This document shows, in pieces, positions 39,762-48,000 of a stretch of 64,000 bases of DNA. The DNA is from Salsuginibacillus kocurii DSM 18087 (GTDB taxonomy: Bacteria > Bacillota > Bacilli > Bacillales > Marinococcaceae), in contig NZ_KB898629.1 in the NCBI RefSeq assembly GCF_000377705.1, positions 62,001 through 126,000 on the forward strand, read 5' to 3'. Numbering within the stretch: the stretch's first letter is position 1; each line of letters begins with the position of its first letter. The notes below the pieces were generated by a model that was given only the letters and a program-made list of their open reading frames with translations, had not been told where the DNA came from and made no database searches. A program made the position numbers and the translations under genes.

Positions 39762-41068
39762 TGGAGATTACCACGTTGGCTAGTATCATTTTATTTGTCT
39801 TGTTCTTTTTCTTTTTATTTTTAGGAGTACCTATTTCAATCAGTCTTGCAACCGCTTCATTTGCTGCGATTGTTTTGTTTCTTCCACCAGGACCAGCTTT
39901 ATTTGCGGCAACCCAGCAAATTGTGACCGGAATTGACGATTATATATTGCTTGCTGTCATCTTTTTCATGTTAGCAGGAAGCATTATGAATAATGGCGGC
40001 ATTGCTTTACGATTAGTGAATTTAGCTAAATTAATTGGAGGAAGAATGACAGGTTCACTGGCTCACACAAACGTGTTGGGGAACATGCTCTTTGGCTCCA
40101 TTTCTGGTTCAGCAATTGCTTCTGCTGCCACGATGGGTAGAACAATGAGTCCGATCCAAAAAAAAGAAGGGTATGATCCAGGCTATTCGGCCGCAGTTAA
40201 TATTTCCTCTGCCCCAATGGGCCTCATTATTCCTCCTAGCGGCATGCCCATTCTCTTTTCTCTGCTAAGTGGAGGGACTTCGATTGGGGCACTCTTTTTA
40301 GCTGGTTACCTACCTGGTATTTTAATGGCTGTAGCAGTAATGATGATGGCTTATATCCTTGCCAAACGAGCCAATTACCCAGTTTCAGAAAAGTTTAAGT
40401 TGAATGAAGCCATGCGTGTAATTTGGCAAGCTGGACCAAGTTTACTTCTGATTATTATTGTAGTAGGTGGAATTGCAGGAGGGATTTTTACAGCGACAGA
40501 AGCCTCTGCTGTAGCCGTTTTGTACTCACTTGGACTATGTTTAATCTATAGAAGTTTATCGTGGTCAGACGCTCCAAAAATATTAAAAGAGACCTTTGTA
40601 TTCACGGGAATAATTATGTTTTTGGTAGGCGCTTCTGCCATTATGTCATGGGTCCTCTCCTATGCTGGTATCCCACAAGCATTTGCAAATACGCTGCTTG
40701 CTATCTCTGATAATTATTTTGTTTTAATATTAGCCATGGTTGTCATTTTATTGGTGATCGGAACCTTTATGGATGTGGCTCCAGCTTTGCTTGTGTTCAC
40801 ACCTATTTTATTGCCGGTAGCTACAGAAATGGGGATGGACCCTGTTCATTTTGGCTTAATGATGATGATGGCATTAGCGATTGGGGTAACAACGCCACCG
40901 GTAGGGACCGTGTTATTTATTGGCAGCAGTGTTTCAAAGGTTAGTATTGAGCGCATCATACCACCGCTATTGAAATTCTATACACCGCTTGTGGCGGTTT
41001 TGCTATTGGTAGCTTATATTCCATCTATCAGTCTGTGGCTCCCTGGAGTATTTGGTGTGTTGGAATAA
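39761..41068 (+). CDS. dctM: TRAP transporter large permease, DctM family
   Basis: The 435-residue ion-transporter superfamily protein has about 12 helices and carries out Na+-coupled substrate translocation. Family landmarks are FFMLAGSIMNNGGIALRLVNLAKLIGGRMTGSLAHTNVLGNMLFGSISGSAIASAATMG, then ISSAPMGLIIPPSGMPILFSLLSGGTSIGALFLAGYLPG and AIGVTTPPVGTVLFI. It is complete and ends the island. A hairpin at 41286 lies about 220 bp downstream. Confidence 0.94.
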   Translation: MEITTLASIILFVLFFFFLFLGVPISISLATASFAAIVLFLPPGPALFAATQQIVTGIDDYILLAVIFFMLAGSIMNNGGIALRLVNLAKLIGGRMTGSLAHTNVLGNMLFGSISGSAIASAATMGRTMSPIQKKEGYDPGYSAAVNISSAPMGLIIPPSGMPILFSLLSGGTSIGALFLAGYLPGILMAVAVMMMAYILAKRANYPVSEKFKLNEAMRVIWQAGPSLLLIIIVVGGIAGGIFTATEASAVAVLYSLGLCLIYRSLSWSDAPKILKETFVFTGIIMFLVGASAIMSWVLSYAGIPQAFANTLLAISDNYFVLILAMVVILLVIGTFMDVAPALLVFTPILLPVATEMGMDPVHFGLMMMMALAIGVTTPPVGTVLFIGSSVSKVSIERIIPPLLKFYTPLVAVLLLVAYIPSISLWLPGVFGVLE

Positions 41069-41167
41069 AAGAGGAGTCGATAAGGCAAGGTTTGCTTGAA
41101 GAGGATGGGAGAAAAGTTTAGAAGACGGTTTAAAAACGGAACAATAACGGAGTAAAGTCAAAATGAT

Positions 41168-41268
41168 AAGACCCCTGCAGGCCAGCATGAGCTGAAACCT
41201 AAACCGAACGAGAGGGAGTTTTAGGAAGTTGAAGCCGTGCCTGCGGAAAGCGAAGCACGTCGACCATG
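41168..41268. repeat. Degraded copy of a GC-rich Bacillaceae interspersed repeat
   Basis: This stretch starts GACCCCTGCAGGCC and ends GAAGCCGTGCCTGCGGAAAGCGAAGCACG. The reverse complement (CTTCGCTTTCCGCAGGCACGGCTTC-like) recalls the arms of the interspersed element seen more intactly at 54976. The centre is diverged. Identification rests on recollection of repeats in related genomes. Confidence 0.45.
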
Positions 41269-41285
41269 CACATTACCATATTACT

Positions 41286-41334
41286 AAACCCGTACTATGA
41301 TTAACGTTTTTAAAATCATAGTACGGGTTTTACT
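41286..41334 (+). terminator. Long hairpin, probable terminator of the TRAP operon
   Basis: AAACCCGTACTATGATT and AATCATAGTACGGGTTT pair over 17 bases around an 11-nt loop, then TTACTTATTTT. A very stable structure; the trailing T run is interrupted. Confidence 0.75.
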
Positions 41335-41864
41335 TATTTTAAAAGGTTATGTACCAGCCCCTTTTTTGGTTTTACTAGCTTATCCCGAATTCATATAGCC
41401 AACACCGTAGTACTAGGGTATGGTAAACGTAACAATAATTTACTTAAAAAGGACAGGTTCATGTCTGCTATTCATCCATATATAATATATGCAGGGCAAG
41501 CAGATGACTGAAGAAGCGATAAAGGTTTATACTTCTATGTTTGACCGGAAGTAGGGCCGGAGTAGTTTTTAACATCAATAGACAGCCCTTTATGTGTACA
41601 GATCGTGTTATTTTACAAAGCCTCAGTTCAGGCGAACGAATTCTTTCTTGGTGCTTTATACGATGAAGAAGAAACCGACCAAGCTTATAGATGCCTGTCA
41701 AGCGACGACATATTGCTTTCTTTAAGTACCTATCCATGAAGTGAAGAGAAAAAGGTGCTTGAGAGTTGGTCCTTTTTGCGGGGACCTCGAAGCTGGGCTT
41801 AAGCTCGACCAGGATGTAAATGATGATATAGCAGTTTAATACGGGTTAGAAAGAAGGATGAAGA
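41335..41864. other. 530-bp stretch without a recognisable gene
   Basis: A minus-strand frame (41468-41737) exists but has no ribosome binding site or recognisable family. The right end must hold the promoter of the ABC-LytTR gene; GAAAGAAGGATG precedes its ATG. No copy of the 9-bp repeat found at 42916 was seen here. Confidence 0.4.
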
Positions 41865-42914
41865 ATGGCTACTCTGCATATTAAGCAGATTGAGAAGCAC
41901 ATGGGAAATAAACGTATTTTTCCTTCGTTTGATTTTGAATTACGAGCAGGTGAAATGGCTTCTGTGTATGCAGCGAGCGATATTCGCACCATGTTAATGA
42001 AGGTTTTAGCCGGGGATGCAGCTGTATCAAACGGTTCTATTCACGTAGGTGATATTCCGGTCACGCTTGGGGGGGAAGAGCACCTTACAGAGTTGGGTCT
42101 CTTGTTTTTAACTGAAGGTCACTATGGGCGCTTGCGCGTAAAAGATCATCTTTTATTTTATAAGCGGTTGTATCAGGCCGATCTTTCCGTTGATGAGGTA
42201 TTGGAACGCCTGCAGCTAGTACCGGAAAAGCATAGTCAGGTTCAGCACTTATCATCGTCTGAGCAGCGCAGGGTGCAGTTGGCGCGTTATTTTTTTCAAA
42301 ATCCGGAAGTGCTAGTGATCGAAGAGCCCTTTCAAAATATGGACATGGAAACAAAGCGTATCTTTATGAACGTTTTTAAAGTCTTACAGGAAGAAGGAAA
42401 ATCAATCTTGGTGCTTACGGAAAACCTCGAAAGTGCAATTACTCTATCTGAGAAGGTCTATCGGTTAGATGAGCAAGGTTTAAGTTTGGTGCAGATGGAA
42501 GAAGACAGGGAGCATCACACCGAAGAGGACGAGGAAGAAATGAATACAGAACCTGTTGAAACAACCGAACCCATTCCTTTTAATAAACTTCCGACCAAAG
42601 TTCAAGATAAGCTTATTTTATTTGACCCGCCTGAAGTGGATTATATTGAAAGTCAAGATGGGCAATCTCATTTATACGTTAGAGGGGAAGCTTTTCCTTG
42701 TGCATTTACATTAAATGAACTAGAAGAGAAATTACATAGTTATGGGTTTTATCGCTGCCACCGTTCATATATTGTAAACTTGCAAAAAGTTCGTGAAATC
42801 ATTACCTGGACACGGAATAGTTTTAGCTTGCGGTTAAATGATACCGACAAGTCTGAAATTCCACTTTCAAAAGCAAAAATGGCTGATCTACGTGAAATGA
42901 TGGGGCTCAAATAA
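41865..42914 (+). CDS. Fusion of a Walker A-deficient ABC ATPase domain with a LytTR DNA-binding domain
   Basis: The 349-residue protein has two parts. Residues 1-210 follow an ABC ATPase: LHIKQIEKHMGNKRIFPSFDFELRAGEM, a degenerate signature LSSSEQRRVQLARYFFQNP (129-147) and a Walker B-like VLVIEEPFQNMD (149-160). The P-loop position reads VYAASDIRTMLMKVLAG with no GxxGxGK[ST], so ATP hydrolysis is unlikely. An acidic linker (211-235) leads to a LytTR domain (about 255-345) with the typical FYRCHRSYIVNLQKVREI. It is followed by a 9-12-9 direct repeat, a dyad and a genuine ABC exporter. It probably regulates that exporter, perhaps by contacting transporter subunits through its dead ATPase domain; this is inference. 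Confidence 0.9.
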   Translation: MATLHIKQIEKHMGNKRIFPSFDFELRAGEMASVYAASDIRTMLMKVLAGDAAVSNGSIHVGDIPVTLGGEEHLTELGLLFLTEGHYGRLRVKDHLLFYKRLYQADLSVDEVLERLQLVPEKHSQVQHLSSSEQRRVQLARYFFQNPEVLVIEEPFQNMDMETKRIFMNVFKVLQEEGKSILVLTENLESAITLSEKVYRLDEQGLSLVQMEEDREHHTEEDEEEMNTEPVETTEPIPFNKLPTKVQDKLILFDPPEVDYIESQDGQSHLYVRGEAFPCAFTLNELEEKLHSYGFYRCHRSYIVNLQKVREIITWTRNSFSLRLNDTDKSEIPLSKAKMADLREMMGLK

Positions 42915-42915
42915 T

Positions 42916-42945
42916 CTCCATTCACCTCAAAATGAACTCCATTCA
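42916..42945. promoter_or_regulatory. Candidate LytTR binding site: two 9-bp direct repeats spaced by 12 bp
   Basis: CTCCATTCA occurs at 42916-42924 and again, identical, at 42937-42945, with exactly 12 bp between. LytTR regulators bind paired 9-bp direct repeats with 12-bp spacing. The repeat pair starts two bases after the stop of the ABC-LytTR gene and lies about 85 bp before the ABC exporter start. The base sequence itself is not the textbook LytTR consensus, so assignment rests on geometry and position. Confidence 0.65.
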
Positions 42946-42969
42946 GCCAAAACATAAGGCAGTCTCCGT

Positions 42970-43005
42970 GTTTTTCACTTACGCTAGAAGCGTACATTGA
43001 AAAAC
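42970..43005. promoter_or_regulatory. Dyad symmetry element in front of the ABC exporter genes
   Basis: GTTTTTCA ... TACGCT AGA AGCGTA ... TGAAAAAC forms two nested inverted repeats with 2- and 3-nt internal offsets. It lies 23 bp before the TTG start of the ATPase gene. No T run follows, so it is more likely an operator or attenuator than a terminator. Confidence 0.55.
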
Positions 43006-43027
43006 GAAGCAGGGAGGCTGCAACGAA

Positions 43028-43867
43028 TTGATACAAATTGAACAGGTGTCAAAATGGTTTGGAAATGAGAAGGCGCTGGGGCCCTTACAGTTAGAAATAG
43101 AGTTTGGAGAAATATTTGGCTTTTTAGGACCAAGTGGAGCAGGCAAAACGACCACCATTAAACTACTTACCGGCCAATTGCTGCCAACAGAAGGAAAGGC
43201 ATATGTATTTAATCAGCCCGTCCATGAAATAAGAAAACAAAAATACCGTAAAAAGATGGGCATTATGACAGACAACAGTGGACTTTATCAACGACTATCT
43301 ATTTATGATAATTTGAAACTGTATTGTGATTTATACAGTGTGAATACTCGTCGTATAAAAGACGTACTAGAAATGGTGAATTTGCAAGATAATGAAAAAA
43401 AGCTTGTATCAACGTTGTCCAAAGGGATGTTGCAGCGGGTAGCCTTAGCCCGGGCATTCTTGCATGAACCGTCTCTTCTGTTTTTGGATGAGCCGACTGC
43501 AGCGCTTGATCCCGTGAATTCCCACCACATTCATGAAGGCTTGCGACGTTTAAAGAAGCAAGGTGTTACCATTTTTTTAACGACGCATGACATGAATGAA
43601 GCGGAAGAGCTTTGTGACCGAGTTGCTTTTTTATCTGAAGGAGAAGTGAAGCTGCTTGGCACACCAAAACAGCTACGGCGGCAGTTTTCTGACGCCACAA
43701 TAACCGTGGAATTAACCGATGGCAATACACTCACCTTGCAGCAGTATAGTGAAGGGGCAAGTCAGCTGTATGAATTAATGCTGCAAAAAAAAGTGGTATC
43801 TATCCACACCAATGAACCAAATTTGGGCGATATCTTTAGAGATGTAACGGGGAGGACGTTGGTATGA
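43028..43867 (+). CDS. ABC transporter ATP-binding protein (drug/peptide exporter type)
   Basis: The 279-residue ATPase has an intact Walker A GPSGAGKT (34-41), signature LSKGMLQRVALARA (about 136-149), Walker B SLLFLDEPTAALDP and H-loop TTHDMNEAEELCD. The CcmA/BcrA-like C-terminus runs to NLGDIFRDVTGRTLV. The start is TTG at 43028 with AGGGAGG upstream. It overlaps the permease gene by four bases. Together they form a two-gene ABC-2 exporter, probably for an antibiotic, peptide or lipid, preceded by its presumed ABC-LytTR regulator. Confidence 0.93.
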   Translation: MIQIEQVSKWFGNEKALGPLQLEIEFGEIFGFLGPSGAGKTTTIKLLTGQLLPTEGKAYVFNQPVHEIRKQKYRKKMGIMTDNSGLYQRLSIYDNLKLYCDLYSVNTRRIKDVLEMVNLQDNEKKLVSTLSKGMLQRVALARAFLHEPSLLFLDEPTAALDPVNSHHIHEGLRRLKKQGVTIFLTTHDMNEAEELCDRVAFLSEGEVKLLGTPKQLRRQFSDATITVELTDGNTLTLQQYSEGASQLYELMLQKKVVSIHTNEPNLGDIFRDVTGRTLV

Positions 43868-44577
43868 GCTTTTCAATAAATCGAGTGTACGCGATTTTCC
43901 AAAAAGATGTGAAAGAGTTAGCCAAGAATTTAATGGTCTTATCTACTATTATTATGCCGCTCTTCTTCGCGCTATTGTTTGGCCGTGAGGACCCTGTTGT
44001 TCTTGAAATTCATTACCTGATCATTAATCTGACACTTGTTAGTGTGGCCGCATTTGTTCAATGTGCAATTATCGCTGAAGAAAAGGAAAAAAATACATTG
44101 CGCGGCTTAATGATGTCGCCTGCAAGTGTCGTAGAGATATTGACCGGCAAAAGTTTGGTAAGCATTATTCTTACTGGTGTCACGTTTTGGGTTTGTATAA
44201 ACATTACCGGCTACCAGCCTGAAAACTGGGGCGTTATCAGTACCGCGTTAATCATCTCTTTAATATTTTATTTGGCCTTAGGGACGTTGTTAGGACTTGT
44301 GACACGCACGCTCATGGAGGCTTCTGTGGTGATTGTTCCGTTTATCTTAGTATTTGGTATGGGGGTGCTCTTTACTGAATTGATGGGTGACCTCGCGTTA
44401 CTGGAAATTCTGGAGTACCTGCCTAATATTCAACTCGAACAACTGGCTGCTACAGTGGAGAATGGAGGCGGATTCGCCGAAGTCGGCAGTGAACTGGCCA
44501 TTATCTCGGGCTGGACGCTAATCACGTTGGTGGCTGTCCAGGTTGTCTATCAAAAGCGAAAAGTAGACGGAATGTAG
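43864..44577 (+). CDS. ABC-2 type transporter permease
   Basis: The 237-residue membrane protein has six hydrophobic segments. It starts INRVYAIFQKDVKELAKNLMVLSTIIMPLFFALLFG and contains IAEEKEKNTLRGLMMSPASVVEILTGKSLVSI, the EKE..T...L..SP segment characteristic of ABC-2 permeases. It overlaps the ATPase gene by ATGA and would dimerise to form the exporter channel. The substrate is unknown. Confidence 0.92.
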   Translation: MSFSINRVYAIFQKDVKELAKNLMVLSTIIMPLFFALLFGREDPVVLEIHYLIINLTLVSVAAFVQCAIIAEEKEKNTLRGLMMSPASVVEILTGKSLVSIILTGVTFWVCINITGYQPENWGVISTALIISLIFYLALGTLLGLVTRTLMEASVVIVPFILVFGMGVLFTELMGDLALLEILEYLPNIQLEQLAATVENGGGFAEVGSELAIISGWTLITLVAVQVVYQKRKVDGM

Positions 44578-44736
44578 AGAGAAAACAAGCGGAAGCGTCA
44601 TCAAAACGTTAGTAAAACGATGAAAAGTTCCCTGCAAGCAAATGGATAGACTTCAACGAATATAGTGAATAGGTGTTGCTTATAAGTAGGTTGACTCGTT
44701 GACTGCAAAAAAGAAGACTCAGTGACAGCCAACGTT

Positions 44737-44809
44737 GGGGCAGGGAAAGCGGTGTCATGCCTCTTCCGTGGAGAAAGTGAAAACTCTCGCGACACCTATG
44801 GCCTGCCCC
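44737..44809. other. Nested inverted repeat in the gap after the ABC exporter
   Basis: GGGGCAGG pairs with CCTGCCCC and GGTGTC with GACACC, giving an interrupted stem of 14 bp over a roughly 34-nt central region. It is followed by CTTCGTTTGTTTTCTTTTT. It may be a terminator or a diverged interspersed repeat. The rest of 44578-45091 holds no recognisable gene. Confidence 0.5.
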
Positions 44810-45091
44810 CTTCGTTTGTTTTCTTTTTACGGCAGATGGATAAGATGTAGTCCTCAAGAGCTCTAAGTTGTTGCCCCCTGTACTAAAACGTTTTGCATTT
44901 TTCATCCTGTCACTATGAGTATTCAAACCATGGGGGTTCTGCTCCTACATCAAAGACATCTGTACCATTTTATAGTTAGTAAAGCAATTTGGTTGATTGG
45001 TGTGAGCGCATTTGCTCATGTTCTTAACGACAAAAGATGAACGTATTGATATTGGGATGTGCTTTTACATACAAAGGAGTTGAATCGATCT

Positions 45092-48000
45092 ATGGCTTGG
45101 CTGCGTTTACTGTTACAACGAAAGCTTATTGTGGGTTTGTTTATTGTGCTCGTCCTCTTTGTAGGGCGTTTCGGTCTGACGGAGATGGACGTTGAAATTA
45201 TGCCGGATATTGATTTAGATATGGCAATCATCTCAGTCCCTACGTCCGATCTATCGGTTCTTGATGTGGAAGAGCAGGTCACGGATCCGATCGAGGACCG
45301 TTTGGCATCGATTGACGGTATTGATGACTATTCATCGGACACAAGTGCCGGGAATGTCAGCTTTAACGTCATGCTTGAAGAAGATGGTAGTGACGAGTCA
45401 TTTCGCGATCTTGAAGTAGCGATGACGGATATGGAGCAGCTGCCGGCGGTTCAGGACATTTCCACCTTCCGCTTTGGCACGAGTGGCGCCGAGTTGTTTT
45501 TGGAAGTGTACGGTGGGGATACGAATGAGATGTCGCGCTTCACCGAAGAAGTGGCCGTGCCGCGGCTTTCTGCGCTCGCTGAAGTCGGCACGATTGATGT
45601 TAGCGGTGTGCAGGAACAAGAAGTGGCCGTTTCCATCGACCAAGAAGAGCTCGCCGACAACGGCTTAAGTCTGCCGGACGTCCAGCAGGCGATTCAGGAT
45701 CATAATCAAAACGCGACCCTTGGCAGCTTGGCCGCTGACGACGGCGATGAGCGCGTCCGCTGGGATACGTCCCTTGATAGCGCGGAAGCCCTCGAAGATG
45801 TGACCCTGCAAACACCAGACGGTCTTGTCGCCTTACAAGACGTCGCAGATATTGAAATGACGCCGGCTGAAAACGGTTCAGCCGCTTGGAAAAACGGCAG
45901 CAGCGATGTCATTTCCTTGCAAATTGAAAGTGCCAGTGATGTCGGGGAAATTGAATTAACAGAAACGGTGCGAGCCGAAATGGAGCAAATACACGAGGAA
46001 GATTACGTAAGCGGCTTCGCCTTTGAAGAGTTAATTTCGACCGCTGATTTTATTCAAGACTCGATTGACAGTATCCAGCAAAATGTGGTGATCGGCGGGT
46101 TGCTGGCGCTTATGGTTCTGTTTTTATTCACGTTAAAGTTTCGTCCGACAATGATCATTGGAGTTTCGATTCCACTCTCCATTATGCTCACATTCTCTTC
46201 CATGTGGTTTCTCGGCTACAGCATTAACATGCTCACGTTAATTGCGCTTGGTCTTGGGATCGGTATGATGGTCGACTCGGCGATCGTTATCTTTGAGTCG
46301 ATTTACCGCAAGGTCCAGCAAGGCATTGAGATTACAACCGCTGTTATCCAAGGGACAAAGGAAGTCGCCACGGCTGTCATCGCAGCGATGCTGACCACGG
46401 TTGTGGTACTGCTTCCTCTCGCGATTATGAGCGGCGATATCGGTGAGTTCATCATGACGCTCGCAATGGTGGTCATTTTAACGCTCGCAAGCTCTTTGCT
46501 TGTTTCATTCACCGTCATTCCAGTGTTATCAAGTAAACTCTTAAAGAATGCAGCGCAAAAGGCGAAGCCGCGGCCGGATGGATGGCTTAAGCGCGGGTAC
46601 GGCCACATGATTGGCTGGGTGACAGCGAAGAAACTGCGAAGTATTGGTGTATTGGTTGGGTTTTTAGCGTTGTTTATCGGCTCATTGTTTCTCATCGACC
46701 GGATTCCTATGAGTGCGATGCCGGATGTGTACGATCGCGAGACGGAGCTTGTCGTCATGCTTGAATCAAGCGCGGACGATGAAGCTAAAGAGGCGATCGC
46801 AATGGATGTGAACGAACACCTTCAAGACGTGCCGGATGTAACAGATAACACTGTCACGATGTTTGAAGACGAAATGATGTGGCTGTTAATCAACATGACG
46901 GATGAAGAAGATGCGACGATGGAGCAAAGCGAGATTAACGCCGAGATTCTCACCTCGCTTGAACCTCTTGAAGACGATCACCCCGTAGAATCGGTGATGG
47001 CTGCAACCGGTGGAGATATGGGCGGGGAATCCGGACTCACGCTGAATGTGTATGGAGAGGAATATGACGAAATGGCTGCAAGCGCTGAACGCCTCGAGGA
47101 TGAGCTCGCCGCGCTTGACGGTGTCATCAACATTAATCATGACTTTGCTAACATGACTACGGAGAACCAACTCGTTCTCCACGACGATGAGTTGACCGAC
47201 TACAGCCTCACCGCAGCTGATGTTCGAAGTCAGATCGGAGCGGTGTTTATGCGTGACGAAATCGAGCAGTTATCGGTTGGAACTAACCAAGAGGTTCCCG
47301 TATTCCTGGAGTTTTCTCATGAGGTTGACGACATGGAGGCACTGCTCGATTATGAATTAAATACAGCGGCCGGAAGCATCCCGCTTTCAGATATCGCTTC
47401 TCTGGAAGAACAAGAAATGCCCGTGAAAATATCTCGAGAAAACGGTGAACGTATCGCCTCGGTTACCGCAGATCTCGATGGTCAGGACTTAGGGACTGTG
47501 AACCGCGAACTTCAAGATGTAGCCGAAGAAGTGACAGCCTCGACAGATACGACAGTACAAGTCGGCGGCGCACTTGAACAGCAGCAAGAAGCCATGACAG
47601 AAATTCTCTTCGTCTTAGGTATTGCGGTTCTGCTTGTGTATATCGTGATGGCGGTTCAGTTTAACAGTTTCATCCATCCACTTGTCGTTGTTTCCATTCT
47701 GCCACTCACCTTCGTCGGTGTCATTCTTGGCTTACTTATCACGCAGATGGAGCTGAACATGATTGCCGCAATGGGCGTGGTCATGCTCGTGGGGATCGTC
47801 TTAAACAATGCCATCTTACTCATTGACCGCTTGAATAAACTTCGAACCGTTGGAGGAATGCCGCGGACGGAGGCCATAATGCAAGCAGGTAAAGACAGGA
47901 TGCGACCCATCTTTTTGACAACATTTACAACAATTGCTGGCATGCTGCCACTGGCTCTTGCTGTCGGCGGGGTCAGCGATTTCCAGGCACCGATGGCAAC

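Follow-up and report, generated by a model that had tools for sequence, protein, structure and literature searches.

A LytTR regulator with a decayed ABC ATPase domain beside an ABC-2 exporter in Salsuginibacillus kocurii: a candidate one-component, transporter-coupled regulator

The locus described here lies in a window of 64,000 nucleotides of the Salsuginibacillus kocurii DSM 18087 genome (positions 62,001 to 126,000 of contig NZ_KB898629.1). An ORF on the forward strand at 41865..42914 begins with ATG and encodes a product of 349 aa, which the ORF, Pfam, and structural models together divide into a pseudo-ABC-ATPase (residues 1-210), an acidic linker (approximately residues 210-240), and a LytTR domain (residues 248-346). 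The Pfam ABC_tran profile matches residues 42-156 (E 4.4e-11) and is entered by the protein only from profile position 25, i.e., past the P-loop; the LytTR profile matches residues 248-346 (E 8.9e-26). By sequence, the place of the lost Walker A motif (codons 34-45; 41964..41999, + strand) reads VYAASDIRTMLM, the Walker B motif reads VLVIEEP, and the H-loop site reads LTEN. Of the features that mark an active ABC ATPase, the protein thus has the fold and lacks the Walker A P-loop, the Walker B Asp, and the H-loop His. A preliminary description of the same DNA had proposed an ABC fold without a P-loop, an acidic linker, and a LytTR domain for 41865-42914, together with the Walker B-like VLVIEEP; the first three are borne out by Pfam, the models, and the sequence, and the last by the sequence.

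In an AlphaFold2 model built from 17 sequences, residues 1-210 adopt the ABC fold with pLDDT values of 64-94 in blocks of 10 residues, and the top Foldseek match of the model is LptB (E 1.4e-16, TM 0.76 by target length). The remainder of this full-length run, including the LytTR domain, was poor (block pLDDT 26-63). Modeled separately, the LytTR part reached a mean pLDDT of 84.9 and matched the LytTR structures 3d6w, ComE, and AgrA, and the regulator can be placed among proteins with a LytTR DNA-binding domain by both Pfam and fold match. Within the ABC half, the segment that follows the Q-loop (EGHYGRLRVK, codons 84-93; 42114..42143, + strand) resembles GLYQRLSIYD of the neighboring ATPase, and its residues Y87, R89, and L90 are among the best kept of that half.

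The regulator gene is followed, after a gap of 113 bases, by the two genes of a complete ABC-2 exporter, as had been noted in the preliminary description and as Pfam confirms. The first (43028..43867, + strand; ORF and Pfam) encodes an ATPase with an intact P-loop, GPSGAGKTTT, and has a TTG start with GGGAGG at 43012-43017. The second, which overlaps the first (43864..44577, + strand; ORF and Pfam), encodes an ABC-2 type permease of 237 aa (Pfam E 1.8e-13) that contains the segment AEEKEKNTLR. A P-loop ATPase together with an ABC-2 permease is the composition of the BcrA/DrrA-like ABC-2 exporters. The top NCBIfam match of the exporter is drrA, but this match falls under its cut-off, so that no substrate can be named for the exporter. 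On the other side of the regulator, two 17-bp arms separated by 11 bases form a perfect inverted repeat (41286-41330) between TRAP transporter genes and the regulator gene, possibly a terminator. In the search for a promoter of the regulator itself, sigma-70-like matches in 41060-43100 were at chance level (5 found, 4.2 expected), and an Rfam scan of 41000-45100 returned a single match, also at chance level.

The regulator belongs to a family that is real and widespread. Of the 29 genomes searched from the same taxonomic family, 14 have a relative (E ≤ 1e-30), as do 79 of 397 genomes of the order (E ≤ 1e-45) and 21 of 398 genomes of the phylum (E ≤ 1e-30), the genome of the window being included in each count; ten of the 21 phylum genomes matched the profile in part only and were dropped before loci were counted. 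Named genomes were scanned as well and contributed 20 relatives, chiefly from Paenibacillus; a 21st locus (L029) is an ordinary ABC protein and was dropped. Alignment searches for distant relatives returned mostly ordinary ATPases that match the ABC part alone, and their tallies are not family counts. The locus set comprises 132 loci with distinct regulators, including that of the window. A P-loop ATPase is encoded directly 3' of the regulator in 114 of these (113 by script and L150 by reading), which supports the link to the adjacent exporter drawn in the preliminary description. Across the 113 scripted loci, the distance between regulator and ATPase ranges from −6 to +303 bases, with starts assigned mechanically. 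Two of the 113 have a partial ATPase. The permease comes after the ATPase in 111 of the 113. In L189 and L110, which are not among the 114, the permease precedes the ATPase.

Some of these loci contain further genes. An ORF of approximately 760-850 aa lies directly 3' of the permease place in 15 of the 18 loci L011-L028, which are from Paenibacillus and Fontibacillus, as judged by size and position. The L011 copy, the only one checked, has SecA domains in Pfam, which suggests that the exporter of L011-L028 is linked to a second SecA. A small membrane protein adjoins the regulator locus downstream in L105, L106, L109, and L112 and upstream in L110 and L138; that of L105 matches Pfam Sm_multidrug_ex (E 2.9e-10), and the other copies were judged by look.

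A comparison of the regulators with their neighboring ATPases shows a marked disparity in the ATP site. Among the 128 regulators longer than 280 aa (a set that excludes the short or broken L028, L116, L139, and L176), only two have a strict P-loop, compared to 110 of 110 neighboring ATPases. Because the strict P-loop is absent in 126 of these 128 regulators, its absence from the window protein is not a matter of chance. The two exceptions, L148 and L150, are distant relatives; a strict P-loop is also present in L220, another distant relative, and half-eroded P-loops such as GSHGNGKD occur in the distant relatives L217 (the L149 locus), L218, and L219. The E-value of the Pfam ABC_tran match is 1.2e-20 in L148, 4.4e-11 in the window, and 0.003 in L105, a member of a class of loci in which the exporter ATPase gene is missing next to the permease.

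Residue conservation was assessed in 78 regulators sharing less than 75% identity. The position of the Walker B Asp is occupied by Glu in 55 of the 78, the Lys aligned with that of the P-loop is retained in five, and the H-loop His is retained in six, with Ser the commonest residue there (34). The D-loop Asp is retained in 83%. In the post-Q segment, Tyr (94%), Arg (82%), and Leu (91%) are retained as they are in the ATPases, and this segment has the highest mean conservation of five ABC motif stretches (0.67), three others having values of 0.55-0.57 and the surroundings of the lost P-loop a value of 0.32. The best-kept residues of the ABC half are L118, R136, Y87, P155, E189, L90, and Y199. 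In ABC ATPases, the post-Q region is located at the groove that takes the coupling helix of the permease. In the Paenibacillus regulators, a stretch following the P-loop position is wholly missing.

The ABC domain of the regulator is very probably a decayed exporter ATPase that has lost ATP binding and hydrolysis, and the loss of ATP-site residues supports the catalytically dead ABC subunit that the preliminary description had predicted. It would be conceivable that the domain still binds nucleotide in a non-canonical manner and reports on ATP or another nucleotide. The distant relatives with intact or half-intact P-loops speak for such a role and indicate that the ancestor probably bound ATP, but the near-complete loss of the strict P-loop (2/128), of the aligned Lys (5/78), and of the H-loop His (6/78), together with the missing stretch in the Paenibacillus sequences, makes it very improbable for the present-day family. 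Decay in the family appears in graded stages, from an intact P-loop through a half-eroded and a lost one to loss of the ATPase gene as well, and these stages of conversion allow the change from motor to sensor to be studied.

The gap between the regulator and ATPase genes contains a tandem direct repeat, CTCCATTCA-12-CTCCATTCA, at 42916-42945, with a period of 21 bp. The preliminary description had guessed a DNA site at exactly these positions, and the guess matches the conserved repeat to the base. By sequence comparison, the predicted operator is composed of half-site 1 (ATCTCCATTCAC; 42914..42925, + strand), the first base of which is the last base of the regulator ORF, and half-site 2 (AACTCCATTCAG; 42935..42946, + strand), located 21 bp from half-site 1. 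This candidate target thus has the direct repeats about 21 bp apart that would be expected for a member of the LytTR family.

In a motif-free period test of 35 loci, the mean best 10-base match in the gap at period 21 was 7.57, compared to 6.12 (sd 0.14) in 200 shuffles. The shuffle value was at most 6.6 at any period, no period besides 21 exceeded the shuffle maximum, and the region 5' of the regulator in the same 35 loci gave no peak at period 21. Among 59 loci under 70% identity, the half-site consensus is TGCTCCATTCAC, and the half-sites are spaced by 21 bp in 52 loci, 20 bp in six, and 22 bp in one. A motif trained on half of the loci scored higher than every one of 30 shuffles in 48 of the 59 held-out gaps, versus five regions upstream of the regulator. 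The motif-free period test is the cleaner of these results, since the motif seed came from the same locus set. A secondary peak at period 42 in the 59-locus set (6.34, against a shuffle maximum of 5.93) is probably due to loci that have a third half-site. We strongly infer from this pattern that the LytTR domain binds the gap repeat.

The exact repeat pair occurs only once in the genome, at C7:104916-104945 (42916-42945 of the window). When up to three mismatches were allowed, 16 matches to the pattern were found in the genome versus 2 for a reversed control. Fifteen of the 16 lie outside the window; of the five of these that were inspected, four, among them both of those with two mismatches, fall within ORFs of the mechanical list, and the fifth, L216, does not. 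On the strength of these five of 15 outside matches, and despite the excess over the control, we read the regulator as acting locally rather than on a regulon elsewhere in the genome.

Promoter-like elements follow the repeats. They were compared in the 50 of the 59 loci that have a good site (the nine with weaker sites being excluded), and every offset takes the end of the second 12-base half-site as its origin. Offsets 33, 34, and 38 carry T, A, and T in 32, 31, and 39 of the 50 loci, respectively, giving the −10-box pattern TAnnnT; the window has the −10-like hexamer TACGCT at 42980..42985 (+ strand), 33 bases past half-site 2. This proposed −10 is absent from the list produced by the sigma-70 scan of 41060-43100. 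T, G, and C at offsets 11-13 are retained in 30, 33, and 36 of the 50 loci and occupy the −35 slot for a 17-base spacer. In the window, the counterpart of the AATATAATGC-like element found after the repeats of relatives is AACATAAGGC (42951..42960, + strand), which puts TGC in the −35 slot (offsets 10-15), yet is unlike TTGACA, and across the loci the hexamer in this slot has a mean of 1.78 matches to TTGACA against 1.59 overall. Since a family-wide gap repeat and a promoter-like TAnnnT lie beside the exporter genes, the regulator very probably controls the exporter.

The geometry of the promoter elements suggests an activator, and we consider that the regulator most likely activates the exporter genes. 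Repression in place of activation appears unlikely, but it has to be weighed, as LytTR proteins can repress and activation is argued here from geometry alone. Sequences resembling TATAAT in five of six bases are enriched right past the second repeat, at offsets 0-14, in 14 of 50 loci compared to 4.8 in shuffles, and a −10 box at this location would have the repeats cover the −35 region, favoring a repressor. They are likewise found at offsets 25-34 in 13 of 50 loci compared to 3.5 in shuffles. At a looser threshold of four of six bases, it is the offset-33 element that is better kept, with 23 of 50 loci at offsets 31-35 versus 10 of 50 at offsets 4-8. Also against repression, only the offset-33 element resembles a −10 box in L101 and L104, two loci without an exporter ATPase gene between regulator and permease, and the LytTR Regulatory Systems that have been studied activate from repeats approximately 10 bp 5' of the −35 element (PMC6193735).

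Thirteen loci of one gene-order class encode a lone permease-like protein after the regulator, at a distance of −6 to +21 bases; in one of these, L176, the regulator is broken. Nine of the 13 have no P-loop ABC gene within approximately 5-6 kb on each side, and L101, L104, L108, and L111 have a separate ATPase-permease pair 0.8-1.4 kb downstream. Taken together, the lone permeases are homologous to those of the window type by hhalign (probability 99.3%, E 6.8e-21). Of five examined, three pass the Pfam ABC-2 cut-off (L105, L130, and L101) and two fail it (L112 and L108). An EExE segment is present in seven of seven lone permeases of this ATPase-less class and in six of six window-type permeases. 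An adjacent ATPase is also absent in L147, where a permease-like protein ends 12 bases 5' of the regulator, gives a weak ABC-2 match under the Pfam cut-off (E 5e-4), and lacks EExE. The seven non-redundant members of the ATPase-less class form one clade in a midpoint-rooted tree printed without support values, and the class is accordingly counted as one evolutionary event. The permease of this class could work with an ATPase encoded elsewhere.

Most of the exporter ATPase gene is deleted in two additional loci. In L022 (Paenibacillus faecis DSM 23593), the regulator and a full-length permease are kept, and in L027 (a MAG), the regulator is kept and the permease is shortened to 194 aa. These are two separate deletions, and the L027 operon is probably decaying, because its permease has been shortened.

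Two closely related loci, L101 and L104, are the only ones with clear repeats upstream of the regulator operon; L105-L107, also close relatives of one another, have them weakly. In L101 and L104 the repeats precede the regulator-permease pair, and CATAAT or TATAAT is located at offset 33 (in L104, as counted from the last of three half-sites), so that site and promoter precede the transcription unit that holds the permease. Upstream of the L104 regulator, three consecutive half-sites are arranged in 21-bp steps. L105-L107 have weak motif scores of 9.6-13.0 bits, and none of 200 shuffles scored as high. Overall, motif scoring of 12 ATPase-less loci, with L176 left out, gave two strong, three weak, and seven negative results. 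The seven loci in which it detected no repeat site are L108, L109, L111, L112, L130, L168, and L170. An operator common to all ATPase-less loci had been expected but did not emerge from this scoring, which is a real gap in the argument. Motif scoring was negative in L189 and L110 as well.

The loci without an ATPase gene bear on how the regulator would sense its transporter. The preliminary description had proposed a heterodimer with the exporter ATPase; with 13 loci and L147, L022, and L027 lacking that partner, such a dimer cannot be the whole mechanism, and it persists as an added contact that is possible in the window type. In its strongest form, this idea holds that the pseudo-ATPase senses the exporter through the ATPase alone, forming a mixed dimer with the ATPase encoded at 43028 that has one composite ATP site and releases the regulator upon transport. 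Two positions are better kept where an ATPase is present: Ser or Gly occupies position 4 of the signature in 54 of 65 regulators of the window type versus three of seven ATPase-less ones, and the catalytic Glu itself is retained in 53 of the 65 versus one of the seven. These differences make an extra ATPase contact possible in the window type, at two positions and across what is one evolutionary event. The D-loop Asp, retained in 83% of the 78 regulators, would also suit a mixed dimer, as would the finding that the nearest paralogue of the regulator in its genome is the adjoining ATPase (27% identity, E 8e-17). Against sensing by the ATPase alone, regulator-permease pairs exist without their own ATPase, the residue comparison hangs on a single clade split, and the margin of the adjoining ATPase over other ABC proteins of the genome is small. 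In addition, the D-loop Asp is present in seven of seven ATPase-less regulators (81% of the window type) and an acidic Walker B residue in six of seven (50 of 65 in the window type), so not all residues of the dimer site track the ATPase. We consider sensing by this route alone rather unlikely. The signature Arg is fully retained in the ATPase-less class, and this residue, the D-loop Asp, and the acidic Walker B position misfit simple docking as well.

It may also be asked whether the pseudo-ATPase senses the transporter at all. It could be a mere dimerization scaffold or a sensor of a cytoplasmic ligand, the link to the exporter then being purely transcriptional. A dimer would fit the action of LytTR proteins on tandem repeats, other LytTR proteins carry unrelated sensor domains, and the operator by itself would account for the gene neighborhood. 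This leaves unexplained why the sensor has the fold of an ABC ATPase, why, among the five motif stretches, conservation is highest in the post-Q segment, and why a lone permease stays beside the regulator when the ATPase is gone, and we regard it as quite improbable.

We instead suggest that the transporter is sensed at its permease, on which the dead ABC domain would take an ATPase-like position, an interpretation drawn from the regulator-permease pairs without an ATPase, the homology of the lone permeases to those of the window type, and the shared EExE segment. The permease would be the essential partner, since regulators adjoin permeases that have no catalytic ATPase of their own. Our preferred reading, to which we assign a probability of roughly 0.55, is a one-component transporter-coupled regulator, most likely an activator, with its LytTR domain on the repeats and its pseudo-ATPase docked on the transporter. 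By binding at 42914-42946, where the tandem 9-bp repeats recur with a 21-bp period, the LytTR domain would switch on the promoter of the ATPase and permease genes. The pseudo-ATPase would serve as a docking module that attaches to the ABC-2 permease from the cytoplasmic side; window-type regulators would probably form, in addition, a mixed dimer with the genuine ATPase. Depending on whether the transporter has bound substrate, is idle, or carries the genuine ATPase, the regulator would either be tethered to the membrane or be released to act on DNA, and the membrane protein of the exporter would thus act as the receptor. As far as sequence comparison can support it, the target of the regulator is strongly supported, and the mode of sensing is offered as a proposal.

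A more general and more tentative suggestion is that in Firmicutes an ABC-2 permease can act as a ligand-sensing transmembrane receptor whose ATPase slot is filled by a dead-ATPase transcription factor. The ATPase-less clade would then have kept the receptor alone, with transport gone, and the window would represent an intermediate whose one permease serves exporter and receptor alike; we regard this as possible and somewhat doubtful. A transporter-coupled regulator of the kind proposed here would wire a transport machine straight to a promoter, with no kinase or small messenger in between. Inducers of such regulators may reveal the cargo of many unassigned exporters of Bacilli.

The ABC-LytTR domain architecture was reportedly noted by Nikolskaya and Galperin in 2002, and it is covered by an InterPro entry, IPR012046 (PIRSF036612), which we take to be this architecture; neither accession appears in the open-access full texts searched. 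The accessible portion of an overview of PIRSF mentions LytTR response regulators and does not mention ABC (PMC2674652). Among the matches listed in open-access full texts, a body of literature that leaves most subscription journals outside, there was no experimental study of an ABC-LytTR fusion and no operator for one. As far as we have seen in the open-access literature, the ABC-LytTR regulator is unstudied.

Several known systems offer partial parallels. Modules of the BceAB type respond to antimicrobial peptides through a two-component system, have no fused ABC domain, and use a type of permease unlike that of the window. Signaling of the substrate depends on their ABC exporter, which is itself induced as a result (PMC9020739). 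In the MalT-MalK system of E. coli, an idle ABC transporter holds a transcription activator at the membrane; MalT, however, is a STAND protein that binds the importer ATPase from outside, whereas here an ATPase-like subunit is found inside the regulator (PMC10427625). A further resemblance is to the LytTR Regulatory Systems. Two of the five types described are linked to ABC transporter genes, and four of the five membrane inhibitors have DUF3021 or DUF2154 (PMC6193735). Like HdrRM and BrsRM of Streptococcus mutans, the family described here has a LytTR regulator encoded with a membrane protein (PMC6193735); the two are adjacent in the ATPase-less loci and have the ATPase in between in the window type. 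Unlike in those systems, where the regulator is a separate protein, the regulator here bears a decayed ABC ATPase, and its presumed membrane partner is an ABC-2 permease rather than a DUF3021 or DUF2154 inhibitor (PMC6193735); Pfam detects neither domain in the permease of the window or in the five lone permeases examined. The predicted site of the window type also lies downstream of the regulator and not upstream of its operon. In LytTR Regulatory Systems, the 9-bp direct repeats mostly have 12 bp between them and are preferentially located 10 bp upstream of the −35 element, and the placement of repeat and putative promoter in the family described here resembles this arrangement (PMC6193735).
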